Of a stretch of 60,417 nucleotides of DNA, positions 2,653-56,457 are shown piece after piece. The number at the start of each line of letters is the position of its first letter. Within the stretch, counting starts at the first letter, position 1. The position numbers and the translations under genes were made by a program. The notes under the pieces are model-generated. The model was given only the letters and a program-made list of their open reading frames with translations. It was not told where the DNA came from and did not search any database. Source of the stretch: a bacterium (GTDB taxonomy: Bacteria > UBP6 > JAFGXH01); contig JAMOQH010000032.1 of assembly GCA_027064085.1 (NCBI GenBank), forward strand, positions 1 through 60,417, given 5' to 3'.

Positions 2653-2751
2653 ATGACTAACTTAACAAATACGCTTAAAAATCAATTTGAAGAATCTGCA
2701 AGACTGGAAGTTGAAATAAAGAAAAATTTGAAAGAGTTGGGATTTGAATGA
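2653..2751 (+). pseudogene. hsdM: C-terminal remnant of type I methyltransferase subunit HsdM
   Basis: Thirty-two codons ending in QFEESARLEVEI and NLKELGFE, the typical last residues of HsdM, the DNA-adenine methyltransferase subunit of type I systems. The roughly 480 upstream residues with the SAM-binding and NPPF/Y motifs are absent: a TAG stop lies in frame at 2632-2634, and 2493-2650 shows no methyltransferase motif. Its TGA overlaps the ATG of the next gene (ATGA), preserving the old operon coupling. It may still be translated as a small peptide but cannot methylate DNA. Confidence 0.75.
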
Positions 2752-3104
2752 TGAGTGATTTAGTTATAATTGATGAAGAAACTTTAAAAGAAAAAATTTA
2801 TACAATAAGAGGCTTGCAGGTAATGCTTGATAGAGATTTAGCAAAATTGTATAAAGTTGAAACAAAGGTGTTCAATCAAGCTGTTAAAAGAAATATAAAA
2901 AGATTTCCAGATGATTTTATGTTTCAATTAAGTAAAAATGAACTTGAGAATTGGAGGTCACAATTTGTGACCTCCAATTCTGATAAAATGGGATTAAGAC
3001 GCTTACCCTTTGGAGCAAGTTTAAAAGATTTAGGTAAAAAATGGTTTGCATTTTTTAAATTTGAAAAGGGGGCTATTGAAGTGTTGGGGAGGCTTGGGGT
3101 ATGA
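2748..3104 (+). pseudogene. ORF6N-domain protein with internal deletion
   Basis: The first 85 residues match the ORF6N (KilA/ANT-type DNA-binding) domain: [25 protein letters not shown] and [11 protein letters not shown]. After LRRLPFGAS the usual FTEQGVAML segment and the long middle part are missing. The chain jumps to [14 protein letters not shown], a known C-terminal motif of these proteins. The result is a frame-preserving deletion giving 118 residues instead of roughly 200-300. ORF6N genes are common passengers inside type I restriction operons. It overlaps yhcG by four bases (ATGA). DNA binding may survive; normal function is doubtful. Confidence 0.65.
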
Positions 3105-4087
3105 GTAGTCTTATAAAAAGTGAAGAGTACAAAAACTTTATTAAAAACATAAAAAATAAAATCTATTCATCACAAATAAAGGCAGGAATATCTGTTAATA
3201 AAGAAATGTTAATGCTTTATTGGAATATTGCAGAAATGATAGTTGAAAAACAAGAAAAATCTTCATGGGGAAGTGGATTTATAAATGAAATAAGTAAGGA
3301 TTTAAAGAAAGAATTTCCAGAAATGAAAGGATTTTCTAAAAGAAATCTTCTTTATATGAAAAGGTGGTTTTTATACTGGAATGAAATTGTGCAACAAGCT
3401 GTTGCACAATTAGAAAATATAATTCCTTGGGGACATAATATCGTTATTATAGAAAAGATAAAAGATATTGAAACCGCAATATTTTATATCAATAAAACAA
3501 TAGAAAATAACTGGTCAAGAGCTGTTTTAGTTCATCAAATTGAATCAGGATTATATAATAGACATGGAAAAGCTATTAATAACTTTAAAGAAAACCTTCC
3601 TGCTATTCAATCAGACCTTGCAAAACAAGTATTAAAAGATCCTTATTGTTTTGATTTTTTGACATTAACAGAAGATTATAATGAAAGAGAACTTGAAAAT
3701 GCACTTGTTGATAATATAACTCAATTTCTTTTAGAATTAGGAGCTGGATTTTCATATTTGGGAAGACAATATAAATTAAATGTTGGCGGAGATGATTTTT
3801 ATATAGATTTACTCTTTTATCATGTTAAATTACATAGTTATGTAGTTGTGGAGTTAAAAACTGTTAAATTTATACCCGAATTTGCAGGAAAATTAAATTT
3901 CTACATATCAGCAGTAGATGGAATATTAGCAACTGAAACTGATAACCCTACAATTGGAATTTGCAAATCTAAAAATGATACAGTAGTTGAATACTCATTA
4001 AAAGATGTAAATAAAGCTATTGGTGTAAGTGAATATCAATTAACAAATTTCTTCCTGATGAGTTTAAATCATCATTACCAAGTATAG
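3101..4087 (+). CDS. YhcG-type PDDEXK nuclease (DUF1016), frameshifted tail
   Basis: 328 residues. The N-terminal DUF1016 region (residues 1-150: [31 protein letters not shown]) is followed by a PD-(D/E)XK domain with FYIDLLFYH and VVVELK as the catalytic D...ExK. The family's usual C-terminus is encoded in another frame at 4050-4119, ending in [20 protein letters not shown] one-base indel near 4041-4055 therefore replaces the last 20 or so residues with an unrelated tail. The nuclease core is intact, so residual activity is possible. Such genes usually sit between hsdM and hsdS, as here. Confidence 0.85.
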
Positions 4088-4148
4088 AAGAAATTGAAGC
4101 TGAGCTTGAGAATAAGTAATGGAGCTCTATGTAGGAACAAGGAAACTC

Positions 4149-4201
4149 CCACCAACAAGGGGGGGCAACCCTTTGTTCAGATGCAAAGCATTTGATGGTG
4201 G
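4149..4201 (+). repeat. REP-like double hairpin, left copy
   Basis: CCACCA (4149-4154) pairs with TGGTGG (4196-4201). Between them lie a 24-base near-palindrome (4154-4177) and a hairpin with arms TCAGATGC and GCATTTGA (4177-4195). The same 53-54 base design is repeated in the same orientation at 4693-4746. It lies 21 bases before the transposase start. This copy carries mismatches in both hairpins, so it is the more eroded one. Confidence 0.8.
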
Positions 4202-4222
4202 AGAGGATAAAGAGGAGAATAA

Positions 4223-4768
4223 GTGGAAAATTATCATCATATTGTATGGGTAACACATAATAGTAGAATTAGTGAAAGAATGATTATATTTAAGGTATCA
4301 AGAGGAGAAGCTCTTATATTATCAGATGCAGATGAAGTTGAAATAGCTAACTATATTTTTCAAGTTTCAGATAAAATAAATATAAAGGTTTGTTCGATTA
4401 ATATTTGTAAAGACCATATTCATATGCTGATAAATGCCAATAATAAAGATATATCCCAAATAATGAAATCAATTAAAGGAAAAACAACTCATTTATATAA
4501 AAAAAATCACAATATAGATTATAGTTATAGCTTATGGGCTCAAAAATATTTCTCTGAAAAGATAAAAAATGAATCACACTTCACAAATGTTATTGAGTAT
4601 ATAGAAAATAATAGAAATAAACACGAATTGCCTAGAAATATAGAACTAGAAAAGACGATATATCGATATAAGGATTCCCACCAAATGGACTCCCACCAAC
4701 AAGGGGTTGCAACCCCTTGTTTCAGATGCAGAGCATCTGATGGTGGAAATGATAAAGATGAGGAATAA
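4223..4768 (+). mobile_element. REP-associated tyrosine transposase (RAYT, Y1/IS200-like)
   Basis: A 181-residue HUH single-strand transposase. It shows the N-terminal YHHIVWVTH strand, the metal-binding HUH motif DHIHMLI, KSIKGKTTH, LWAQKYFSE and the helix with the catalytic Tyr (NVIEYIENNRNKH). The start is GTG at 4223 with GAGGAG nearby. The last 25 or so codons run through the right-hand REP-like hairpin, so the C-terminus (DSHQQGVATPC...) is probably read-through of repeat DNA. RAYTs bind and move REP palindromes; here one identical-type palindrome lies on each side. The insertion lies between the yhcG-type gene and hsdS. Confidence 0.88.
4693..4746 (+). repeat. REP-like double hairpin, right copy
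   Basis: CCACCA (4693-4698) pairs with TGGTGG (4741-4746). It encloses a perfect 24-base palindrome (4698-4721, centred on GC, arms AACAAGGGGTT/AACCCCTTGTT) and a perfect eight-pair hairpin TCAGATGC/GCATCTGA with loop AGA. The result is a Y-shaped fold. It overlaps the 3' end of the transposase ORF. Confidence 0.85.
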
Positions 4769-4819
4769 TGACTAAAAGAAGACATAGATTATTAGAAAAA
4801 GATAATGTTGGAGGGGATG

Positions 4820-5434
4820 ATGAATAAGAAGGGCTTGCCTGATGGGTGGAAAATTAAACCCTTGGATAAAATTGCACATTATTTAAACGGCTTAGCTCTT
4901 CAAAAATTTAGGCCAAAAAATGATAATAATTTTTTACCTGTATTAAAAATCTCCCAATTAAGAAGTGGCTTTGCGGATGGTAAAGAAAAAGCTGATATAA
5001 ATATAAAATCTGAATATATTGTTGAGAATGGTGATGTTATATTTTCATGGTCAGGTAGCCTAATTGTTGATATCTGGTGTGGTGGAAAAGTAGCTCTGAA
5101 TCAGCACTTATTCAAGGTAACTTCTATTGATTATGATAAATGGTTTTATTATTATTGGACTAAAGAACACCTAAAAGCCTTTCAACAAATAGCAAAAGAT
5201 AAAGCTGTAACAATGGGACATATAAAAAGAAGTCACTTCAGTGAAGCTTTGTGCATTATTCCTGATAAAATTATCTTAAAAAAGGCAAAAAAAATTATCT
5301 CTCCATTATTAGATAGAATAATTTCAAATAGATTAGATAATAATAATTTAAAAGAAGAAAGAGATACTCTCTTACCTAAATTAATGAGTGGTGAGATTAG
5401 AGTTGGGGTGGGTAATGATGCAAATGGAGATTAA
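4820..5434 (+). CDS. hsdS: Half-size type I restriction specificity subunit HsdS
   Basis: About 204 residues. It has one target-recognition domain beginning LPDGWKIKPLDKIA, with FLPVLKISQLRSG, GDVIFSWSGS and LNQHLFKV, followed by one conserved helical region ending KEERDTLLPKLMSGEIRV. Complete HsdS is usually about 400 residues with two such halves, so this is the C-terminal half, or a half-subunit able to dimerise. Without HsdM it has no partner methylase here. Start ATG 4820 follows GGAGGGG; an in-frame ATG at 4805 lacks a good ribosome site. Confidence 0.85.
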   Translation: MNKKGLPDGWKIKPLDKIAHYLNGLALQKFRPKNDNNFLPVLKISQLRSGFADGKEKADINIKSEYIVENGDVIFSWSGSLIVDIWCGGKVALNQHLFKVTSIDYDKWFYYYWTKEHLKAFQQIAKDKAVTMGHIKRSHFSEALCIIPDKIILKKAKKIISPLLDRIISNRLDNNNLKEERDTLLPKLMSGEIRVGVGNDANGD

Positions 5435-5463
5435 GTGCTTTAACTGAATACATAAGAATATTT

Positions 5464-5493
5464 GTAAAAACATAAAAAAATTTATGTTTTTAC
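5464..5493 (+). repeat. Perfect 13-base-pair inverted repeat after hsdS
   Basis: GTAAAAACATAAA (5464-5476) and its exact complement (5481-5493) are separated by AAAA. No T-run follows on the plus strand, so it is not a standard terminator. It is the first of four consecutive hairpins between hsdS and hsdR. Confidence 0.7.
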
Positions 5494-5497
5494 CCAA

Positions 5498-5588
5498 ATT
5501 AAAGACCTTTTGGGGCTTTAATTTCAATTTACAAGACCGTAGGGCTTGTAAATCCACGGAAAACCATTGAAAATGGGTTGAAGTGGCA
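5498..5588 (+). repeat. Two-hairpin intergenic element, copy B (with duplicated first hairpin)
   Basis: ATTAAAG/CTTTAAT (5498-5522) is an extra first-type hairpin with an ACC...GGG loop. The element proper follows: ATTTACAAG/CTTGTAAAT (5527-5553), then the outer stem CCAC (5554-5557) / GTGG (5583-5586) with GGAAAACCATT, GAA, AATGGGTT and GAA between. This is the best-preserved copy. It fills most of the 182-base gap before hsdR, whose AGGAGG site is at 5609-5614. Confidence 0.65.
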
Positions 5589-5616
5589 AGAGTTTAGGAA
5601 ATAAAAAGGAGGTTTC

Positions 5617-8226
5617 ATGACTATAACAGAAGATGAATTAGAATTATTAGCAATAGAATGGTTTAAAAATCTAGGCTATGACTATTTATTAGGATATGAT
5701 ATAGCCCCAAATGGTGAAACTCCTTTAAGAAAAAATTATGAAGATGTTTTATTGGAAAATAGATTGGAAACAGCTCTTATAAAATTAAACCCAAGTATTC
5801 CTTTTGACGCAATTACTGATGTAATTTATAGATTAAAAAGACCACAAAAAACTAGTTTAGTTCAAAATAATCAAGAATTTCATAAAATGCTTTTACAAGG
5901 TGTTAGTATTGAAGTAAAAAAAGATGATGGTGCAGATATTGAAATTGTTAAACTTATAGATTTTCATAATATAGAAAATAATGATTTTTTAGTTGTAAAC
6001 CAATATACAATTAATGGAAAAACAGAAAGAAGACCTGATATTATTGTATTTATAAATGGATTACCAATTTCTGTGATAGAATTAAAAAACCCTGTTGGAG
6101 AAAATGCTACAATAGAAGAGGCATTTAATCAAATACAAACATATAAAAATGAAATAGAGGATTTATTTGTTTATAATGAAGCTATTGTTATTAGTGATGG
6201 GATAAATGCAAGAATTGCTTCACTAACTGCTGATAGAGAATGGTATATGTATTGGCGAACTATTGAAAATGAAAATGATAAACCTAAGCTTGAATTAGAA
6301 TTAGAAACAATGATAAATGGATTTTTTAAAAAAGAATTACTTCTTGATTATTTACAGAATTTTGTTCTTTTTGAAGACAACGGAAAGGACTTAATTAAAA
6401 AAAATGCAGGATATCATCAATTTCATGGAGTTAGAGAGGCTGTTTCTTCTGTTTTAAGGGCAAAATTTAATAAAACTAGAAAAGCTGGGATTGAAAGGGA
6501 AGATAAAGATACAAGAGTTGTTTTTGGTGATTATATTTCTATTTATGATATTGAAGATGCTGTAAATGATAAGGCAACAGTGCCCATATATTATGAAAGC
6601 AGATTGGCAAAACTTGATATTGATGAAGCTTTAATGAAAGATATAGATAATGAGGTTGAAGAACTGGTTGAAGGTTCTGAATTAAGTGATCAAGAAAGTT
6701 TTAAAAGTAAATGGAGTACTCTAGAGAAACTTGTTGGGGCAAAAAATAGAGTTGAAGAGATTGCAAAAGATTTAGTTGAGCACTTTGAAAACCGTTTATC
6801 TTCTATAAGTGGTAAAGGTATGATTGTTGCTATGAGTAGAGCAATTGCAGTTGAATTATATGATGCGATTATACAATTAAAGCCCAGGTGGCATAATGAA
6901 GACCCTCAAAAAGGAGTTCTTAAAATTATAATGACAGGTAGTGCAAGCGATAATCAAGAAATGCAAAAACATATTTACAGTAAACAAGTTAAAAAAGAAA
7001 TAGAAAAAAGATTTAAAGACAATGAAGATGAATTAAAGCTTGTAATTGTAATAGATATGTGGCTAACAGGTTTTGATGCTCCATCACTTCATACAATGTA
7101 TATTGACAAACCCATGAAATCTCATAATTTAATGCAAGCTATTGCAAGAGTTAATAGAGTTTTTAAAGATAAAGAAGGTGGACTGGTTGTTGATTATATT
7201 GGAATTGGAAACGAACTTAAAAATGCTTTGAAAACTTATACAAATAGTAAAGGAAAGGGAAAAACAACAATTGATACTCAAGAAGCGTATAATCAATTAA
7301 TTGAAAGAATTGAAATTATAAGAAATATGTACCATGGTTTTGATTATAGTAATTTTAAAGAAAATTCTTTAATCCTATTGCCTTCATCTGCAAATCATAT
7401 TTTAGGATTAAAAGATGGTAAAAAAAGGTATTTTGATACAGTTTTGGCTATGTCAAAAGCATTGAGCTTATGTTCAGGTATGGATGAGATAAAAGAATTT
7501 AAAGAAGAAATTGCTTTTTTTCAAGCTGTAAAAATTGCAATTCTGAAGTCATTTGAGAATCCTAGGAAAAAAGTAAATAAGAATATAGTTATAAAACAAA
7601 TAATAGACAATGCTATTGTATCTGATGGCGTAGATGATATTTTTAAATTAATAGGTATTGAAAAACCAAATATCAGTATATTATCTGAACAATTTATTAA
7701 TGATATTTCTAATATTCCTTACAAGAATCTTGCTGTTGAATTACTTGAAAAATTATTAAAAGATACAATTAAAGCTAGAACTAAAACAAATATTGTAAAA
7801 GAAAAGAAGTTTAGTGATAGATTAAAGGCTAGCCTTAATAATTATCATGTTAAAGGCATAGAAACAGCTCAGATAATAGAAGAACTTATTGCAATGGCAA
7901 GAGAGATTGCCAAAGATTTTGAAAATGAAAAAAAACTTGGTCTTGACTTTGATGAACTTGCATTTTATGATGCTCTTTCTGAAAATGAAGAGGCACTAAG
8001 AGAAATGGGGGATAAAATATTAAAAAATATTGCTATTGAATTAACAGAAAAATTAAGAAAAAGTATTAGTGTTGATTGGCAAAAAAGAGAGAGTGTTAGA
8101 GCAAAAATGAGAAATATTATAAGAATAATATTAAAAAGATATAAGTATCCTCCGAATAAAAGCTCAGAGGCTATAAGCCTTGTAATGAAGCAAACAGAAG
8201 TATTGAGTAATGAATGGAGTAAATAA
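5617..8226 (+). pseudogene. hsdR: Type I restriction subunit HsdR lacking ATPase motifs (in-frame deletion)
   Basis: 869 residues in one open frame; complete HsdR of this type is roughly 1000-1100. The N-terminal nuclease is intact: NNDFLVVNQ, RRPDIIVF (D141) and VIELK (E155, K157). The chain reaches FHGVREAVSSVL (about 270-280) and RKAGI, then continues with EREDKDTRVVFGDYIS, which normally comes just after the GTP(IE) of motif III. The Walker A (QGSGKS), the DEAH box and everything between, about 150-170 residues, are missing. The second RecA-like domain (DMWLTGFDAP, QAIARVNR) and the helical C-terminus remain. ATP-driven DNA translocation is therefore not expected. The TAA falls 43 bases before pyrH. 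Confidence 0.85.
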
Positions 8227-13407: not shown

Positions 13408-14319
13408 TTAATTTTCTTTTAGAAAGTAGGTTTTAAATATTTTATCATATAATGTTTGTTTGTCATCAGATACAAGCATAAATAAATAAGGAAATAACAA
13501 TAATAAGTTTAGTGTAATCATTAAAAGATTTCTAAATATTAAAACAATGGGTGATGCTAAATTATCATTTCTATAAATTTTATATCCAAATAAGTAATTG
13601 AATGGTGTTGATTTTATTATAATATTAAAAATAGTATAATATATAAGTGTAATTAAAAAATATCCTATTAATAATGACTTAAAATTAAAGTTATCATTAA
13701 TTATAAAATCTGTTATTCCTTCAATGTAAGAATACGGTGTTTTTATCATATTGGGTTTAATTAAAAATAAAAAATATAAAAAAGTTAATCCTAAAATTAT
13801 AGCTTGGTCTAAAATAGTTGAACTTAATCTTGCAAAAAATTTTAATACTTTGTAGTGTTTGGTTATACTTGAATTATTTAATTCATCTTTTTTTTGTTCT
13901 GAGTTTAATTTAGAATTCATTGAAAAGCCTAAATTATCAAACTTAGAGCTAATATCTTTCTTTTCTTTTTGTTTGTCTTTTTGTGTAGCTGTTGCTAAAT
14001 CTGTTTTAGACTCTGTGATAGTAGACCCCTCAGTAGGATGAGTCAACGACCCCGTAGCAGGATGAGTCAACGACCCCGTAGCAGGATGAGTCAACGACCC
14101 TGTAGCAGGATGAGTCAACGACCCTGTAGCAGGATGAGTCAACGACTCATCCCTACTAGGGTCTAAATCCTTTATGTTAAATTTTAATTTTCCTACATTA
14201 GTAACCTCAACGGGTTTGGTTTCTTCTTCATCATCAAACAATTTAAATGTATTTGCATACTTGCTTCTTAATTCGTCTTTTGGTTTTTTTTTAGGAGTAT
14301 TATTTGTAGTTTCAGTCAT
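13408..14319 (-). CDS. RDD-family membrane protein with tandem-repeat linker
   Basis: 303 residues. A hydrophilic N-terminal half contains about five copies of the eight-residue unit SLTHPATG (residues 60-95). The C-terminal half is an RDD domain: ARLSSTILDQAIILG (the R...D signature), two further hydrophobic helices, NYLFGYKIYR, FRNLL and SDDKQTLYDKI. RDD proteins are small membrane proteins, some acting in ion tolerance or transport; the role here is not known. Its start overlaps the rsmE end by eight bases, giving coupled expression. Confidence 0.8.
   Translation of the reverse strand: MTETTNNTPKKKPKDELRSKYANTFKLFDDEEETKPVEVTNVGKLKFNIKDLDPSRDESLTHPATGSLTHPATGSLTHPATGSLTHPATGSLTHPTEGSTITESKTDLATATQKDKQKEKKDISSKFDNLGFSMNSKLNSEQKKDELNNSSITKHYKVLKFFARLSSTILDQAIILGLTFLYFLFLIKPNMIKTPYSYIEGITDFIINDNFNFKSLLIGYFLITLIYYTIFNIIIKSTPFNYLFGYKIYRNDNLASPIVLIFRNLLMITLNLLLLFPYLFMLVSDDKQTLYDKIFKTYFLKEN
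14036..14146 (-). repeat. 24-base tandem repeat inside the RDD gene
   Basis: Four full 24-base units begin at 14036, 14060, 14084 and 14108, with a partial fifth at 14132-14146. Units differ only by C/T at one site. They encode SLTHPATG repeats. Near-identity at DNA level implies recent expansion and possible length variation between strains. Confidence 0.9.
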
Positions 14320-51087: not shown

Positions 51088-51951
51088 TTACTTTTTATTA
51101 CCTAATGCTTTAAGTGTAAATGTTCTTTCAAATGCACCACTGTCTAATTGAGCTTGGCTAACTTTGAAATCTTTTTCTAAATCTTGATATAAAACTTTTA
51201 CACCTGTATCAGTAAGTTGAGTTGCATAAATATTAAGGCTCATTCCAACATTAGCTTCATGAATAGTGTAAGCTTTCATCCATGCGTCAGTACAAGGTAT
51301 TGTAGTATAATCAGTAAAATCACAAACACCTTCACTATCACATGCTTCTAGTTCGTTTAATGCGATTCTAAAACTACTAATATCACCACATTCAGTTAGT
51401 GTTCCACCATAACCATCATCAATATCCCATTTAACTGTTAAAATTGCTTGTTGAACTTTTTCAAGTTTAACAACATTTGCATCATTTGCTGCACCAGGAG
51501 CTTCAACTCCACCAATTTTAGGAACGGCTACAAAATTCTTAGAAACTTCATCTGTAAATTTTACAGTAAAGTCATAATCTTTGTTAGACCATAAGTGCTC
51601 AATTGGATAGCCCATATTAGTGCTTTCTAATTCATGAACATTTAAGTCTTTACAAGCTACTGTTGTTTTTGCAACTTCATCACCATGTACAGAAACTGTT
51701 ATGTCAACATTATCTACATTTGCTTCGCTACAATGTAATGCATCATTAGTTTCAGAGTTTCTTAAGTTGAATTTTAAATTAACTATTCCTGCAGGTTCAT
51801 TTTCTCCACAATAACCAGCATAACAAGCTTCTTTTTCACCGTTACAGTCATCGTCTGTTTTACAGTTATCACCAGCTGTTTCACAACCCATTGCAAATGT
51901 CATTAACATTATTGTTAAAATTGACAGTAATAAAAATCTTACCTTTTTCAT
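51088..51951 (-). CDS. Lipoprotein of unknown function in the sigma-factor operon
   Basis: 287 residues. Lipoprotein signal with FAMGC (C23). A Cys-rich start (CKTDDDCNGEKEACYAGYC) resembles the Dickkopf-like segment of other lipoproteins here. The remainder is beta-rich with several Cys pairs (LHCSEANVDNVDITVSVHG, YDFTVKFTDE, ILTVKWDIDDGYGG, LNIYATQLTDTG). No known family. It follows the anti-sigma gene by 33 bases and is probably an envelope target of the ECF sigma factor. Confidence 0.65.
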   Translation of the reverse strand: MKKVRFLLLSILTIMLMTFAMGCETAGDNCKTDDDCNGEKEACYAGYCGENEPAGIVNLKFNLRNSETNDALHCSEANVDNVDITVSVHGDEVAKTTVACKDLNVHELESTNMGYPIEHLWSNKDYDFTVKFTDEVSKNFVAVPKIGGVEAPGAANDANVVKLEKVQQAILTVKWDIDDGYGGTLTECGDISSFRIALNELEACDSEGVCDFTDYTTIPCTDAWMKAYTIHEANVGMSLNIYATQLTDTGVKVLYQDLEKDFKVSQAQLDSGAFERTFTLKALGNKK

Positions 51952-51984
51952 AATTCCTCCATTAAAGTAAGTAAGTTATTAAAA

Positions 51985-52572
51985 TTAAATTGGACCATCA
52001 TCATCGTTATCATTATTTTCTTTAAATAACCAAATAACAGTTTTGTTTTTATCCTTTGTTTTATAAATCATAGCATTAAATTTACTGTATTCTAAGCTAT
52101 CAATAGTTACGCTATCACCTGCTTTAGCTTGAGTATTTACTGTTGTCGTATTAGGTTTATTATTTGAAATAATGATTGAAATCAATAAAATTGCAGCTAA
52201 AGATACTATTGCGGGTGCAAATCTATATATTTTACCAAAAATATTATCATTAGCTTTAGTTTCTTCTTTTTTAATTTTTTCTTTTGGAAACTCAATAATA
52301 TTATCATATAAGGTATGTTCTTCTGTTATATTCTCAGTGTTTTTAAGTTTTTCATTTAAATCTTTTATTAAATTAGGTAATTCAAAACTATGTTCTATTT
52401 GTTCATAATGAAACAAAGTATTGCTTGATAGTTCTTCTAGTTCTTCAACTAAAACTCTACAAGTTTCACATTCTTTAAGGTGATTTGCAACTTCTTGCAT
52501 ATCCTTATCATTTAGTTCACCATCAACATAAGCTGTTAATTTTTCTGTTTCTATAAAATCACATTTTTTCAT
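51985..52572 (-). CDS. Anti-sigma factor with zinc-finger (ZAS) domain
   Basis: 195 residues. The N-terminal zinc-binding anti-sigma domain carries H31-x3-C35-x2-C38 (ANHLKECETCRVLVEEL). A linker leads to one membrane helix (about 113-132: FAPAIVSLAAILLISIIIS) and a short periplasmic domain. It would hold the upstream-encoded sigma factor at the membrane. It lies nine bases after the sigma gene. The periplasmic part ends in an acidic DNDDDGPI tail. Confidence 0.88.
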   Translation of the reverse strand: MKKCDFIETEKLTAYVDGELNDKDMQEVANHLKECETCRVLVEELEELSSNTLFHYEQIEHSFELPNLIKDLNEKLKNTENITEEHTLYDNIIEFPKEKIKKEETKANDNIFGKIYRFAPAIVSLAAILLISIIISNNKPNTTTVNTQAKAGDSVTIDSLEYSKFNAMIYKTKDKNKTVIWLFKENNDNDDDGPI

Positions 52573-52581
52573 TTCAGCCTC

Positions 52582-53175
52582 CTAATTATCATACTCTTTT
52601 AGGTATTTTTTAAGGTTCATTCTTGCATGATGTAATCTGCTCATAACGGTACCTTTTGAAATATCTAAAATTTCTGCAATATCAGCATAAGACATGTCTT
52701 CAAATTCTCTAAGTTGTAGCATTAACTTATGATCATCTGAAAGTTTATTCATTGCTTTAGCCATTTTTACCGACAACTCCCTTTTTTGAACTTGTTCTAT
52801 TGGCGATGCTACTTTATGATGAACCGAATCAGTATAGATACTTTCATTTTTATATTGTTCTCCATATTCTACAGATGATAAATTCCTTTTTTTTCTGTAT
52901 ATATCAATACTGACATTTCTAGTGATTTTATACATCCAAGTGTATAGACTAGAATTTTCTTTAAAGTTTTTGATATACTTGAATACTTTTAAAAAAACAT
53001 CTTGTGTTGCATCGTATGCATCAGATTCATTTTTTAAAATTCCATAAGCAATCATATATATCCTCTTTTGATATGTTTGAACAAGCTCTTCAAAAGCTTT
53101 ATTGTCTCCAACTTTTATTTTTGCCACAAGCCCTTTCTCATTACGCCTCAAACTCAACTCCAAACTATTAGACAT
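52582..53175 (-). CDS. ECF RNA polymerase sigma factor (RpoE-like)
   Basis: 197 residues. Region 2 (FEELVQTYQKRIYMIAYGI, SDAYDATQDVFLKVFKYI, LYTWMYKITRNVSIDIYRKK) and region 4 (LPLREF-type MLQLREFEDMSYADIAEILDISKGTVMSRLHHARMNLKKYL) are complete; region 3 is absent as in group 4 sigma factors. Followed by its anti-sigma gene. Upstream, after 13 bases, lies a receiver-TPR gene, so all may share one transcript from near 54400. Confidence 0.93.
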   Translation of the reverse strand: MSNSLELSLRRNEKGLVAKIKVGDNKAFEELVQTYQKRIYMIAYGILKNESDAYDATQDVFLKVFKYIKNFKENSSLYTWMYKITRNVSIDIYRKKRNLSSVEYGEQYKNESIYTDSVHHKVASPIEQVQKRELSVKMAKAMNKLSDDHKLMLQLREFEDMSYADIAEILDISKGTVMSRLHHARMNLKKYLKEYDN

Positions 53176-53188
53176 CTATAATAAAATT

Positions 53189-54394
53189 TTATTCATTCTT
53201 TTTTAATGTAGCCTTTAATAAAATCCTAGATTTTAACTTTTGGGCTTCAGTAAAATTATTTTTTACCTTTAATGCTAAATTGATATAAAATAAAGCCTTT
53301 TCATATTTTCCCATTTCAAAATATACTGATGATAAATTAAAAAGTAGCACAGGGCTTTCTTTTTTTTCTTGTTTTGATAATTCCCAAGCTTTAGAAAAAT
53401 ATGAAAGTGCCTCTGATTTATTTCCTGATTTATTTAAATTCATACCTATTTCATTTAATTCTTTTACACTTAATGTATGTATATCTGAGTCTAGTTTTTT
53501 TAAATATTTTTTAGCTTTTTGGATATCTCCTTTTTTTATATATAGATTAGCTAAATTATTACTTAACCCCTTGTGTCTTGGGTTTATGTTTTCAACATAT
53601 TTTAAATGCTTTTCTGCTTTGTCATTATTATTATTTTCTAAATATGACTTTCCTATTTCAAAATTATGTTCGGGGTTTTTAGGAGAAAATATTAATACCT
53701 TTTCTAAGGTTTCTAGCTTTTTCTTCTTCTCATTTATAGCATCATAGCATTTTACTAATAATTTGTGTGCAGAAAAACAGGTAGGCTTGAACATTAGTAA
53801 TAATTTTAATTCTTTAATCGATTCTTTGTATTTATTTTTTTTAAATAGATACAAAGCTTTTAAATATTTTATATAAAAATCATTTATTTTATTCTCTAAG
53901 CTAGTAATATATTTTATTGCCATTTCAAGGTTATTATCATCAATTAATTTTTCAATAGAATTTAATATGTACCAATTATCATTTTTATTATATTTTTCAA
54001 TTAATTCATTAATTATTTCTTTTATCATAGGATAATTAAATGGTTTTAGAAGTATTCCATCAAAGCCAAGTTCTTCGGCATAAGATGTGTTTTTAGTATC
54101 ATTGTCTGGTGTAATTAGTATTAATGGAATATTTCTATTGTTTTTATCTTTTTTTAATGTTTTAATAATTTCTATTTCTTTATAATTATAAATATCTATT
54201 TCTAAAAATAGTAGTTCAATATCTAATTTGCTTACAGATGATTCTATTGAATTAAAATCATTTGTATATTGCGCATTTTTAATGCCAGTTTTTTTTATTA
54301 AATTAATTAAAGAATCTCTATTATACATATCCAAGCTATATATTAAGACATTGATTTTTGATAACTGATTTGAATTTACTTTTGTAATAAACAT
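53189..54394 (-). CDS. Degenerate receiver domain with TPR repeats
   Basis: 401 residues. Residues 14-125 fold as a response-regulator receiver: strand LIYSLD, LFLEIDIYN, LILITPDND (T95) and LLKPF (K117). The phosphoacceptor Asp position is Glu65 and the N-terminal acidic pair is lost, so phosphorylation is unlikely. Residues 140-395 hold about six TPR-like repeats (YKESIKELKLLLMFKPTCFSAH, AEKHLKYVENINPRH, SEALSYFSKAWEL, YEKALFYINLALKV). It may be a constitutive scaffold for the sigma-factor system encoded next. Confidence 0.75.
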   Translation of the reverse strand: MFITKVNSNQLSKINVLIYSLDMYNRDSLINLIKKTGIKNAQYTNDFNSIESSVSKLDIELLFLEIDIYNYKEIEIIKTLKKDKNNRNIPLILITPDNDTKNTSYAEELGFDGILLKPFNYPMIKEIINELIEKYNKNDNWYILNSIEKLIDDNNLEMAIKYITSLENKINDFYIKYLKALYLFKKNKYKESIKELKLLLMFKPTCFSAHKLLVKCYDAINEKKKKLETLEKVLIFSPKNPEHNFEIGKSYLENNNNDKAEKHLKYVENINPRHKGLSNNLANLYIKKGDIQKAKKYLKKLDSDIHTLSVKELNEIGMNLNKSGNKSEALSYFSKAWELSKQEKKESPVLLFNLSSVYFEMGKYEKALFYINLALKVKNNFTEAQKLKSRILLKATLKKNE

Positions 54395-54462: not shown

Positions 54463-56457
54463 TTACCTAAATATAGAGCCAAATTTATTAAATAGTTGAT
54501 AGGAATAGATTTTATTCTTTTTAAAAAATCTTAAAGTTGAATTAAGAATTTTTTCTCGATTACTTGTTTCTATTTTATTTTCTTTTTTGCTTAAGTTCAT
54601 ATATTTTAATGTGACTTTTCCAGACATATTAATTAAAAAAGAAATGGTATTTTCTTTATCGATATTTGTAATTAAGCCTATAGATGTAAGTTCATCATTA
54701 AGTTTTCCATCTCTATTTTTATCATAAGTATTATTAAAAAATATTAAATCTCCAATTTGATAGTTCTTGTTTTTATATAATTTTCCATTTTCTTTAATAA
54801 ATTGAAAAATCAATTCGGTAATAGACAGCCATTTTCCTCGTTCATTTTTTATTATTTTAGATTTTGTTATATTTACTTTAAATTTTAGAAAAACCATTTT
54901 TATAAATCCAGAAGAAGAATTCGTCCATAATTTACTAATAGGTAAACTCTTATCCTTAAATTTTAGGGCATAATCAACAACTGGTTTCCTTTGATGATTT
55001 CCAAGCACTTTATATTGTTTAAAGTCTTTTATTGTTGTTCGCTTTCCATTTTTTTTAGGAAGATCTAGTAGCTGACCATAAGAGTTAAATAATTGAGATG
55101 CCAAACTTGGTATATTATTTTTCTTGTCTTTGGAACTTAATTTTCTCAATTTTGAATTTAAAACCTTTATTATGTTTTTATTTTTGATATTTGCTTTGTT
55201 GGGGTGTTTTAAATTCATATTGCGAGTTCTGATAGTATTTCCAACTTTATATAAAAAATATACTGTTCCTTCTTCATCAGTATTGATAACCAAAGCAACA
55301 GTAGTGAGCATATCATCTAATTTATTATTTCTATTTTTATCATAGGTATTATTAAAAAAAATAAAATCACCAGCCTTAGGTGTGGTGTTTTTAAAAATCT
55401 TTCCCTTTTCTTTAACAAAAGAAAAGATTAATTCTGTTGTGTTTCTCCAAGAACCATCTGGATTTTTAGGATAAATATCAGTAAGGTCGATATCAAAATG
55501 TGAATAAACCATTTTTATAAAACCAGATAATGAATTATTCCATTCTTCTGATTTTGGTACTTTTTTATCAATAAATGATTTGGCGTATTCTTTAATTCGT
55601 TTTCTATCAGAAGATATTTTTATACTATTTTTTATTTTTTTATTATTTGAATGAGGTTTTGATAAAATTGCAATTAAGATAATTGCAATTAAAACACTCA
55701 TTGATATTGCTAAAATTTGATATCTTTTATTTTTCGTTAAATTTTCAAAAAAATCTTGTGTTTTAACTTTATTTTTAAAACTCTTTTTGATTGAAGGAGT
55801 TTTGGTGTCATTTTTATTTGTTATTTGGTTATTTTTTACTTTAGTTATTTCTTTTTTAATTACTTCAAGTTCATCTTTTAACTCTGTTGTTCTCCATAAT
55901 ACTGAATATGTTTCTATTTCATCGGATTTCCCCTTAAACTTAACTCGCCCTAGTAGTCTTGTTCTAATTTGTGGGTATTTTTTAATTCCATTTAATGTTG
56001 TTTCGGAAATAGTTGTTCTACTTGCTGCTGTATCTGATTCTATTCTTGCTGCAACATTAACTGCATCTCCAAATATGTCATTATTTTCTACTATTACTTT
56101 ACCAGTATGAATTCCAATTCTAATTTTTATTTTATCTGTTGCTGTTTGATTATAAGCATCTAATTTTTTTTGCATTTCAATAGATGCTCTTACCCCAAGA
56201 AATTCACTATCAAATTTTGCCATAATGGAGTCGCCAATAGTTTTTATTATAGTGCCATTATGAGCTTCTATTATCGGAAATAACATTTTATTATGTCTTT
56301 CTATAAATAATCTACCCTTAATATCACCATATTTTTCAAAATATTTTGTACTGTCTTTTAAATCTGTAAACATAATGGTAATAGTTTTAAGATAATTACT
56401 TTCTAACTTTTGTTGTAATTTATTAATATCTTCTAATATTTTAGATGCATCACTCAT
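54463..56457 (-). CDS. Membrane class III adenylate cyclase with two degenerate NlpC/P60-like domains
   Basis: 664 residues. Residues 20-190 are a class III nucleotidyl cyclase: FTDLKDSTKYF (D32), KTIGDSIMAKF (K72, D76) and FGDAVNVAARIE (D131, N134, R138), so metal and substrate sites look intact. One membrane helix lies at about 246-266. The outside part has two homologous copies (about 290-425 and 492-630). Each shows SGFIKMV, KAGDFIFF or QIGDLIFF, NNTYDKNR and LNDELTSIGLI. They resemble NlpC/P60-CHAP peptidases, but the Cys before SGF is L310/S515 and the His is T386/S592. They are therefore probably sensors rather than enzymes. Confidence 0.8.
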   Translation of the reverse strand: MSDASKILEDINKLQQKLESNYLKTITIMFTDLKDSTKYFEKYGDIKGRLFIERHNKMLFPIIEAHNGTIIKTIGDSIMAKFDSEFLGVRASIEMQKKLDAYNQTATDKIKIRIGIHTGKVIVENNDIFGDAVNVAARIESDTAASRTTISETTLNGIKKYPQIRTRLLGRVKFKGKSDEIETYSVLWRTTELKDELEVIKKEITKVKNNQITNKNDTKTPSIKKSFKNKVKTQDFFENLTKNKRYQILAISMSVLIAIILIAILSKPHSNNKKIKNSIKISSDRKRIKEYAKSFIDKKVPKSEEWNNSLSGFIKMVYSHFDIDLTDIYPKNPDGSWRNTTELIFSFVKEKGKIFKNTTPKAGDFIFFNNTYDKNRNNKLDDMLTTVALVINTDEEGTVYFLYKVGNTIRTRNMNLKHPNKANIKNKNIIKVLNSKLRKLSSKDKKNNIPSLASQLFNSYGQLLDLPKKNGKRTTIKDFKQYKVLGNHQRKPVVDYALKFKDKSLPISKLWTNSSSGFIKMVFLKFKVNITKSKIIKNERGKWLSITELIFQFIKENGKLYKNKNYQIGDLIFFNNTYDKNRDGKLNDELTSIGLITNIDKENTISFLINMSGKVTLKYMNLSKKENKIETSNREKILNSTLRFFKKNKIYSYQLFNKFGSIFR

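Follow-up and report, generated by a model that had tools for sequence, protein, structure and literature searches.

A membrane class III cyclase with catalytically dead NlpC/P60 repeats as a new kind of outer domain

In bacteria, the state of the cell wall is known to be sensed mainly by PASTA kinases, two-component systems and regulators of wall recycling. The PASTA kinases are described as combining a catalytic domain inside the cell with peptidoglycan-binding repeats outside it (PMC6448482, PMC5786024). A review describes RipD as a noncatalytic protein, in which the triad is changed to Ala-Ser-Glu and peptidoglycan binding is retained (PMC12067865). In addition, the adenylyl cyclase Cyr1 of Candida albicans is described as being directly activated by muramyl dipeptide (PMC8308684, PMC6448482). 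Here we describe a bacterial gene that joins a nucleotide cyclase to NlpC/P60 domains devoid of their catalytic residues.

The gene lies in the window, by which we mean the whole stretch of DNA analysed, 60,417 nucleotides long (contig JAMOQH010000032.1 of assembly GCA_027064085.1; UBP6, JAFGXH01). A preliminary description, made from the letters of the window alone, had placed an open reading frame at 54463-56457 and did not give its strand. This frame is real, encodes 664 amino acids and lies on the minus strand. Its product, predicted to be a class III cyclase of the membrane whose outer domain is of a new kind, is composed as follows.

54463 to 56457, minus strand: gene of 664 codons for a class III cyclase, one transmembrane helix and two dead NlpC/P60 domains
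55900 to 56394, minus strand: class III nucleotide cyclase domain, residues 22-186 (PF00211, E 1.9e-21; alignment with Ma1120)
55663 to 55725, minus strand: single transmembrane helix, residues about 245-265 (Kyte-Doolittle; also at 244-265 in a poor full-length model)
55051 to 55605, minus strand: dead NlpC/P60 domain 1, residues about 285-469 (Cys replaced by L310, His by T386, His by Y403)
54466 to 55008, minus strand: dead NlpC/P60 domain 2, residues about 484-664 (Cys replaced by S515, His by S592, His by I609)

The cyclase domain looks intact. The PF00211 match scored 76.9 bits against a curated cut-off of 21.9, and the closest solved cyclase by sequence was Ma1120 (E 6.8e-20, N-terminal part of the window protein). 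D32 and D76, which we take to be the metal positions, and N134 and R138, presumably the transition-state positions, are all present, as are K72 and D127, which align with K101 and D157 of Ma1120. In Ma1120, K101 and D157 are reported as the residues that select ATP (PMC4215837). Since all three pairs are in place, the window protein is expected to be an active adenylate cyclase, with cAMP as its presumed product, and the apparent activity suggested in the preliminary description agrees with the key residues. In a cyclase tree, the cyclase domains of this protein and of two related fusions (see below) fell on one side of a branch in only 57% of bootstraps, which leaves room for more than one origin of the fusion; row L042 of this tree begins within the cyclase domain and is a poor outgroup.

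The cyclase domain is followed by a linker and a hydrophobic helix, which forms the single peak of the Kyte-Doolittle profile (2.94 over the 19 residues starting at 248), in agreement with the one helix described before as joining cyclase and repeats. Positive charges flank this helix on both sides, so the positive-inside rule leaves the topology undecided. However, the repeats are most likely periplasmic, because the cyclase must meet ATP in the cytoplasm and because proteins related to the repeats have the appearance of exported lipoproteins. Thus, the wall-facing orientation proposed earlier is likely, given a cytoplasmic cyclase and the lipoprotein-like N termini of the closest relatives.

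The whole window protein matched NLPC_P60 (PF00877) over two stretches with 26.7 bits, above the curated cut-off of 23, whereas the copies taken singly scored 16.7 and 15.8 bits, each below it. A model of copy 1, built from an alignment of 14 rows, had the NlpC/P60 fold (pLDDT 88.3, pTM 0.85). When this model was compared with known structures by VIA-align 2, the top matches were NlpC/P60 wall hydrolases, led by 4fdy (Z 12.5, rmsd 2.5 Å, 122 residues aligned) and with many more at Z 11-12; RipD was found at Z 11.1 (4jxb, rmsd 2.5, 112 aligned) and Z 10.9 (4lj1). The CHAP domains of LysGH15 and LysK ranked lower, at Z 8.5. The E-values obtained with Foldseek were weak, the best being 1.6e-3 in PDB (a wall autolysin of NlpC/P60 type) and 1.9e-3 in BFVD, so the fold assignment leans on VIA-align 2 and the sequence matches. 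In the sequence alignment, copies 1 and 2 share 45% identity. The full-length model was poor (pLDDT 47.9, pTM 0.29), and how the two domains, or the chains of a dimer, are placed is not readable from it. The preliminary description had spoken of two CHAP/NlpC-like domains and had named structure prediction as the check, with an unrelated fold counting against it. For copy 1 the NlpC/P60 part of this assignment agrees with the predicted fold; as CHAP stands below NlpC/P60 in the fold ranking, NlpC/P60 is the better name. The architecture is more than a chance similarity, because homologous domains at 36-50% identity are encoded in the same genome and the NlpC/P60 model of copy 1 is a confident one.

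To describe the catalytic positions we aligned 39 NlpC/P60 domains, picked from match coordinates. They comprised domains of the three genomes of the family defined below and 22 domains from outside it (17 from the ten other genomes of a profile search and five from a pattern scan of GTDB contigs). Cys, His and the third His were replaced in all ten dead domains. In the window protein these positions are occupied by L310, T386 and Y403 in copy 1 and by S515, S592 and I609 in copy 2, and neither copy has a Cys-His-polar triad; in the other dead domains Cys has given way to A or S, His to T, S, G or N, and the third His to Y, M or T. At the Cys position serine stands in five of the ten, and L or A in the other five. 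At the same time, C-H-H was kept in 5/5 family domains with the NDCSG motif and in 22/22 domains from outside the family. The earlier account had the replaced Cys (L310, S515) and His (T386, S592) exactly right but had missed the third residue (Y403, I609), and the motifs SGF, GD(F/L)IFF and NNTYDKNR that it listed as retained are all present. The dead domains also have features of their own: [ST]GFxKM stands beside the lost nucleophile in 10/10, and KM occurs there in none of the 59 other rows. An acidic DxNxDGxxND-like loop, of which both end Asp residues are conserved in 10/10, is also kept and may bind calcium. A different kind of degeneration was seen in two proteins (L027 2184-3728 and L060 43-1827), in which a first domain with C-H-H is connected by long repetitive linkers to a degenerate second one; these second domains lack the Cys and have N or D in place of His, and their third His is kept.

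In a tree computed with IQ-TREE a branch supported at 100/100 separated the ten dead domains from all others, and the same clade was recovered at 100/100 when the catalytic columns and their neighbours were masked and the degenerate second domains (L027, L060) were left out. As the ten domains are one clade, the losses in the two window copies are not two independent events, and independent loss of the triad in each copy was rejected. Probably the triad was lost once, in a stand-alone domain, which was then duplicated and fused to the cyclase. The preliminary description had argued for a ligand-binding role from the shared loss in both copies, and this argument falls, since one inherited loss was counted as two. 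Purifying selection after the loss, together with the precedent of RipD, provides better arguments for a binding role. We estimated dN/dS between the genomes G001 and G002 by the Nei-Gojobori method with our own script; dS was 0.53-0.78, so it was not saturated. For the fusion gene dN/dS was 0.20 in the dead domain, 0.105 in the cyclase domain and 0.337 in the linker and helix, and for a tandem lipoprotein-like gene it was 0.08 and 0.16 in the dead domains and 0.741 in the linker. The dead domains are kept under purifying selection.

The fusion was found in the three genomes of one family (f1), namely that of the window (G000), G001 (JAFGXH01, ZodW_Metabat.349) and G002 (DYRY01, SulCav). The fusions of G001 and G002 (433 and 431 aa; L059 and L057) consist of a cyclase, a helix and one dead domain, compared with two dead domains in the window protein. 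A separate protein with two dead domains in tandem is encoded in 3/3 family genomes (464, 454 and 449 aa; L024, L028 and L029), each time with an N terminus judged by eye to be lipobox-like, and these lipoprotein-like proteins of the same genomes are the closest relatives of the window repeats. Active NlpC/P60 relatives are also encoded in all three. In the remaining 25 of the 28 genomes of the phylum, none among the matches listed covers the repeats. Of 386 genomes searched with a profile, 13 gave matches, namely the three of the family and ten with C-H-H domains, and a scan of GTDB r220 contigs for two short patterns, in which the window's own genome may be absent, gave ten loci, five from G001 and G002 and five stand-alone C-H-H proteins. 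In the phylum of G055, matches were obtained in 144 of 195 genomes; of 30 matches examined, C-H-H was intact in 29, while L111 has A-H-Q instead. The latter (G395:C27) is a separate degenerate NlpC/P60 member from a phylum other than that of the window, with no cyclase found in its locus. G055 itself has a cyclase-like frame some 1.4 kb away from an active NlpC gene (L037, 10-1308 and 2695-3645); neither the surroundings of L061-L065 nor the 30 loci showed this arrangement again. No fusion of a cyclase to NlpC/P60 was found in any genome examined beyond the three of the family, and the literature search, one part of which covered no NlpC papers, returned no description of such a fusion. Thus, the layout that had been called undescribed was indeed absent from the literature found, but it recurs in both other genomes of the family, and the proposed search for this architecture yielded two relatives with a single dead domain, not a tandem.

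Downstream of the fusion gene, on the same strand, lie a response-regulator/TPR gene, the genes of an ECF sigma factor and of a zf-HC2 protein, and a lipoprotein-like gene (51088-54394). These four genes form a block that is also present in G001 and G002, there with no cyclase beside it, and the block was therefore rejected as a conserved partner. The neighbours of the fusion gene differ in each of the three family genomes, and in these no conserved genetic link of the fusion to wall genes was found. Elsewhere in the window, what by eye resemble a restriction-modification remnant, a nuclease gene and a transposase gene lie between tsf and pyrH (2748-8226), the genes rpsB, tsf and pyrH being directly consecutive in G001 (L028), and a membrane protein (13408-14319) carries several near-identical tandem copies of SLTHPATG in its N-terminal part. 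Matches to the cNMP-binding domain PF00027 numbered 12, 10 and 9 in the three family genomes; such domains are common and were present in 10/14 controls too. In L006 (613-3114), a gene read as a CHASE2-like cyclase adjoins, on the same strand, one read as CRP-like.

The best single explanation of these findings, at about an even probability, is that the dead NlpC/P60 repeats are the wall-ligand receptor of a membrane adenylate cyclase. In class III cyclases the active sites are formed between two chains, so that only the dimer is active. The dead domains would bind peptide stems of the wall, or muropeptides released from it, within the former substrate groove or close to it, and binding would alter the pairing of two chains across the membrane by bringing the outer tandems together or twisting them. 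The paired cytoplasmic cyclase domains would then make more or less cAMP, which would act via cNMP-binding proteins of the same genome. Peptidoglycan as the ligand and control through the dimer are proposals. Moreover, the catalytic positions vary across the dead domains (L, S or A; T, S, G or N; Y, I, M or T), so the old pocket may not survive as a binding site. A more specific version, possible if doubtful, is that the dead tandem binds periplasmic wall fragments and directly drives the cyclase in a kinase-free line from wall to cAMP, with the dead-domain lipoprotein competing for the ligand or presenting it.

The repeats could instead be a protein-docking module for active NlpC/P60 proteins or for the tandem dead-domain lipoprotein, the cyclase reading the state of the partner. 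Candidate partners exist in 3/3 genomes, both as active relatives and as the tandem lipoprotein to which the repeats are most closely related, and the dead clade has conserved residues of its own, SGFxKM next to the lost nucleophile among them; however, no gene neighbourhood links the cyclase, the active NlpC/P60 proteins and the lipoprotein, and we regard docking as somewhat unlikely. It is unlikely that the repeats merely tether the cyclase to the wall or aid dimerisation without signal-dependent control. RipD sets a precedent for plain binding, and a tether would tolerate the difference in copy number between the window protein (two) and the fusions of G001 and G002 (one), but a constraint this strong over the whole domain is not obviously needed for it.

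Functionless, decaying leftovers could also have lost their catalytic residues, yet the dN/dS of 0.08-0.20 between G001 and G002 and the long intact frames in three genomes make decay very improbable. Hardly any credence can be given to residual enzyme activity through another nucleophile such as S515: a Ser does occupy the Cys position in 5/10 dead domains, but L or A stands there in the other five, and His and the third residue are lost in 10/10 as well. A receptor for a wall ligand thus remains our preferred reading of the repeats.

The window repeats resemble RipD (Rv1566c; PDB 4jxb, 4lj1) in the NlpC/P60 fold and the replacement of Cys and His of the triad, and a capacity to bind peptidoglycan, as reported for RipD, may be shared as well. 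At the same time, RipD has no cyclase and no helix-linked output, its single NlpC/P60 domain has Glu as the third residue, and it is only 14-15% identical to window copy 1 in the aligned part. Subfamily members in which the NlpC/P60 domain is active (L026, L027; L061 and L062 of Archangium) have a DxNxDG-like insert and the C-terminal part in common with the repeats and within the family are 36-43% identical to them, but keep Cys-His-His and are not fused to a cyclase. If the proposed receptor function is correct, an enzyme turned receptor would coexist with active relatives in one genome, and the change could be dissected residue by residue.

A plan similar to that of the whole protein is seen in a paralogue in the same genome (L025 2529-5027, G000:C188). 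Its cyclase domain is 52% identical to that of the window protein and is likewise linked to a helix, whereas its outer domain is another one, CsgG/LpoB-like (PF03783, E 2.3e-9; PF13036 LpoB, weaker, E 8.7e-6), and it has an extra central region. This long region, which gave no Pfam match, reads as CHAT-type protease-like (related protein: L107 88-2724). The LpoB match is at best a hint of wall biology. From these sequences, outer domains appear to be exchanged in this lineage while the cyclase chassis stays the same, and a similar plan is found in alphaproteobacterial cyclases with TolB-like outer domains. The PASTA kinases PrkC and PknB share the general plan with the window protein but combine a kinase with PASTA domains rather than a cyclase with dead NlpC/P60 domains, and are reported for most Gram-positive bacteria; neither kinase nor PASTA domains were among the Pfam matches of the window protein up to E 10. 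Cyr1 differs from the window protein in being fungal and in binding its ligand via leucine-rich repeats. Should the repeats indeed be a wall-ligand receptor, the window protein would provide a direct route from the wall to cAMP and represent a bacterial counterpart of Candida Cyr1.
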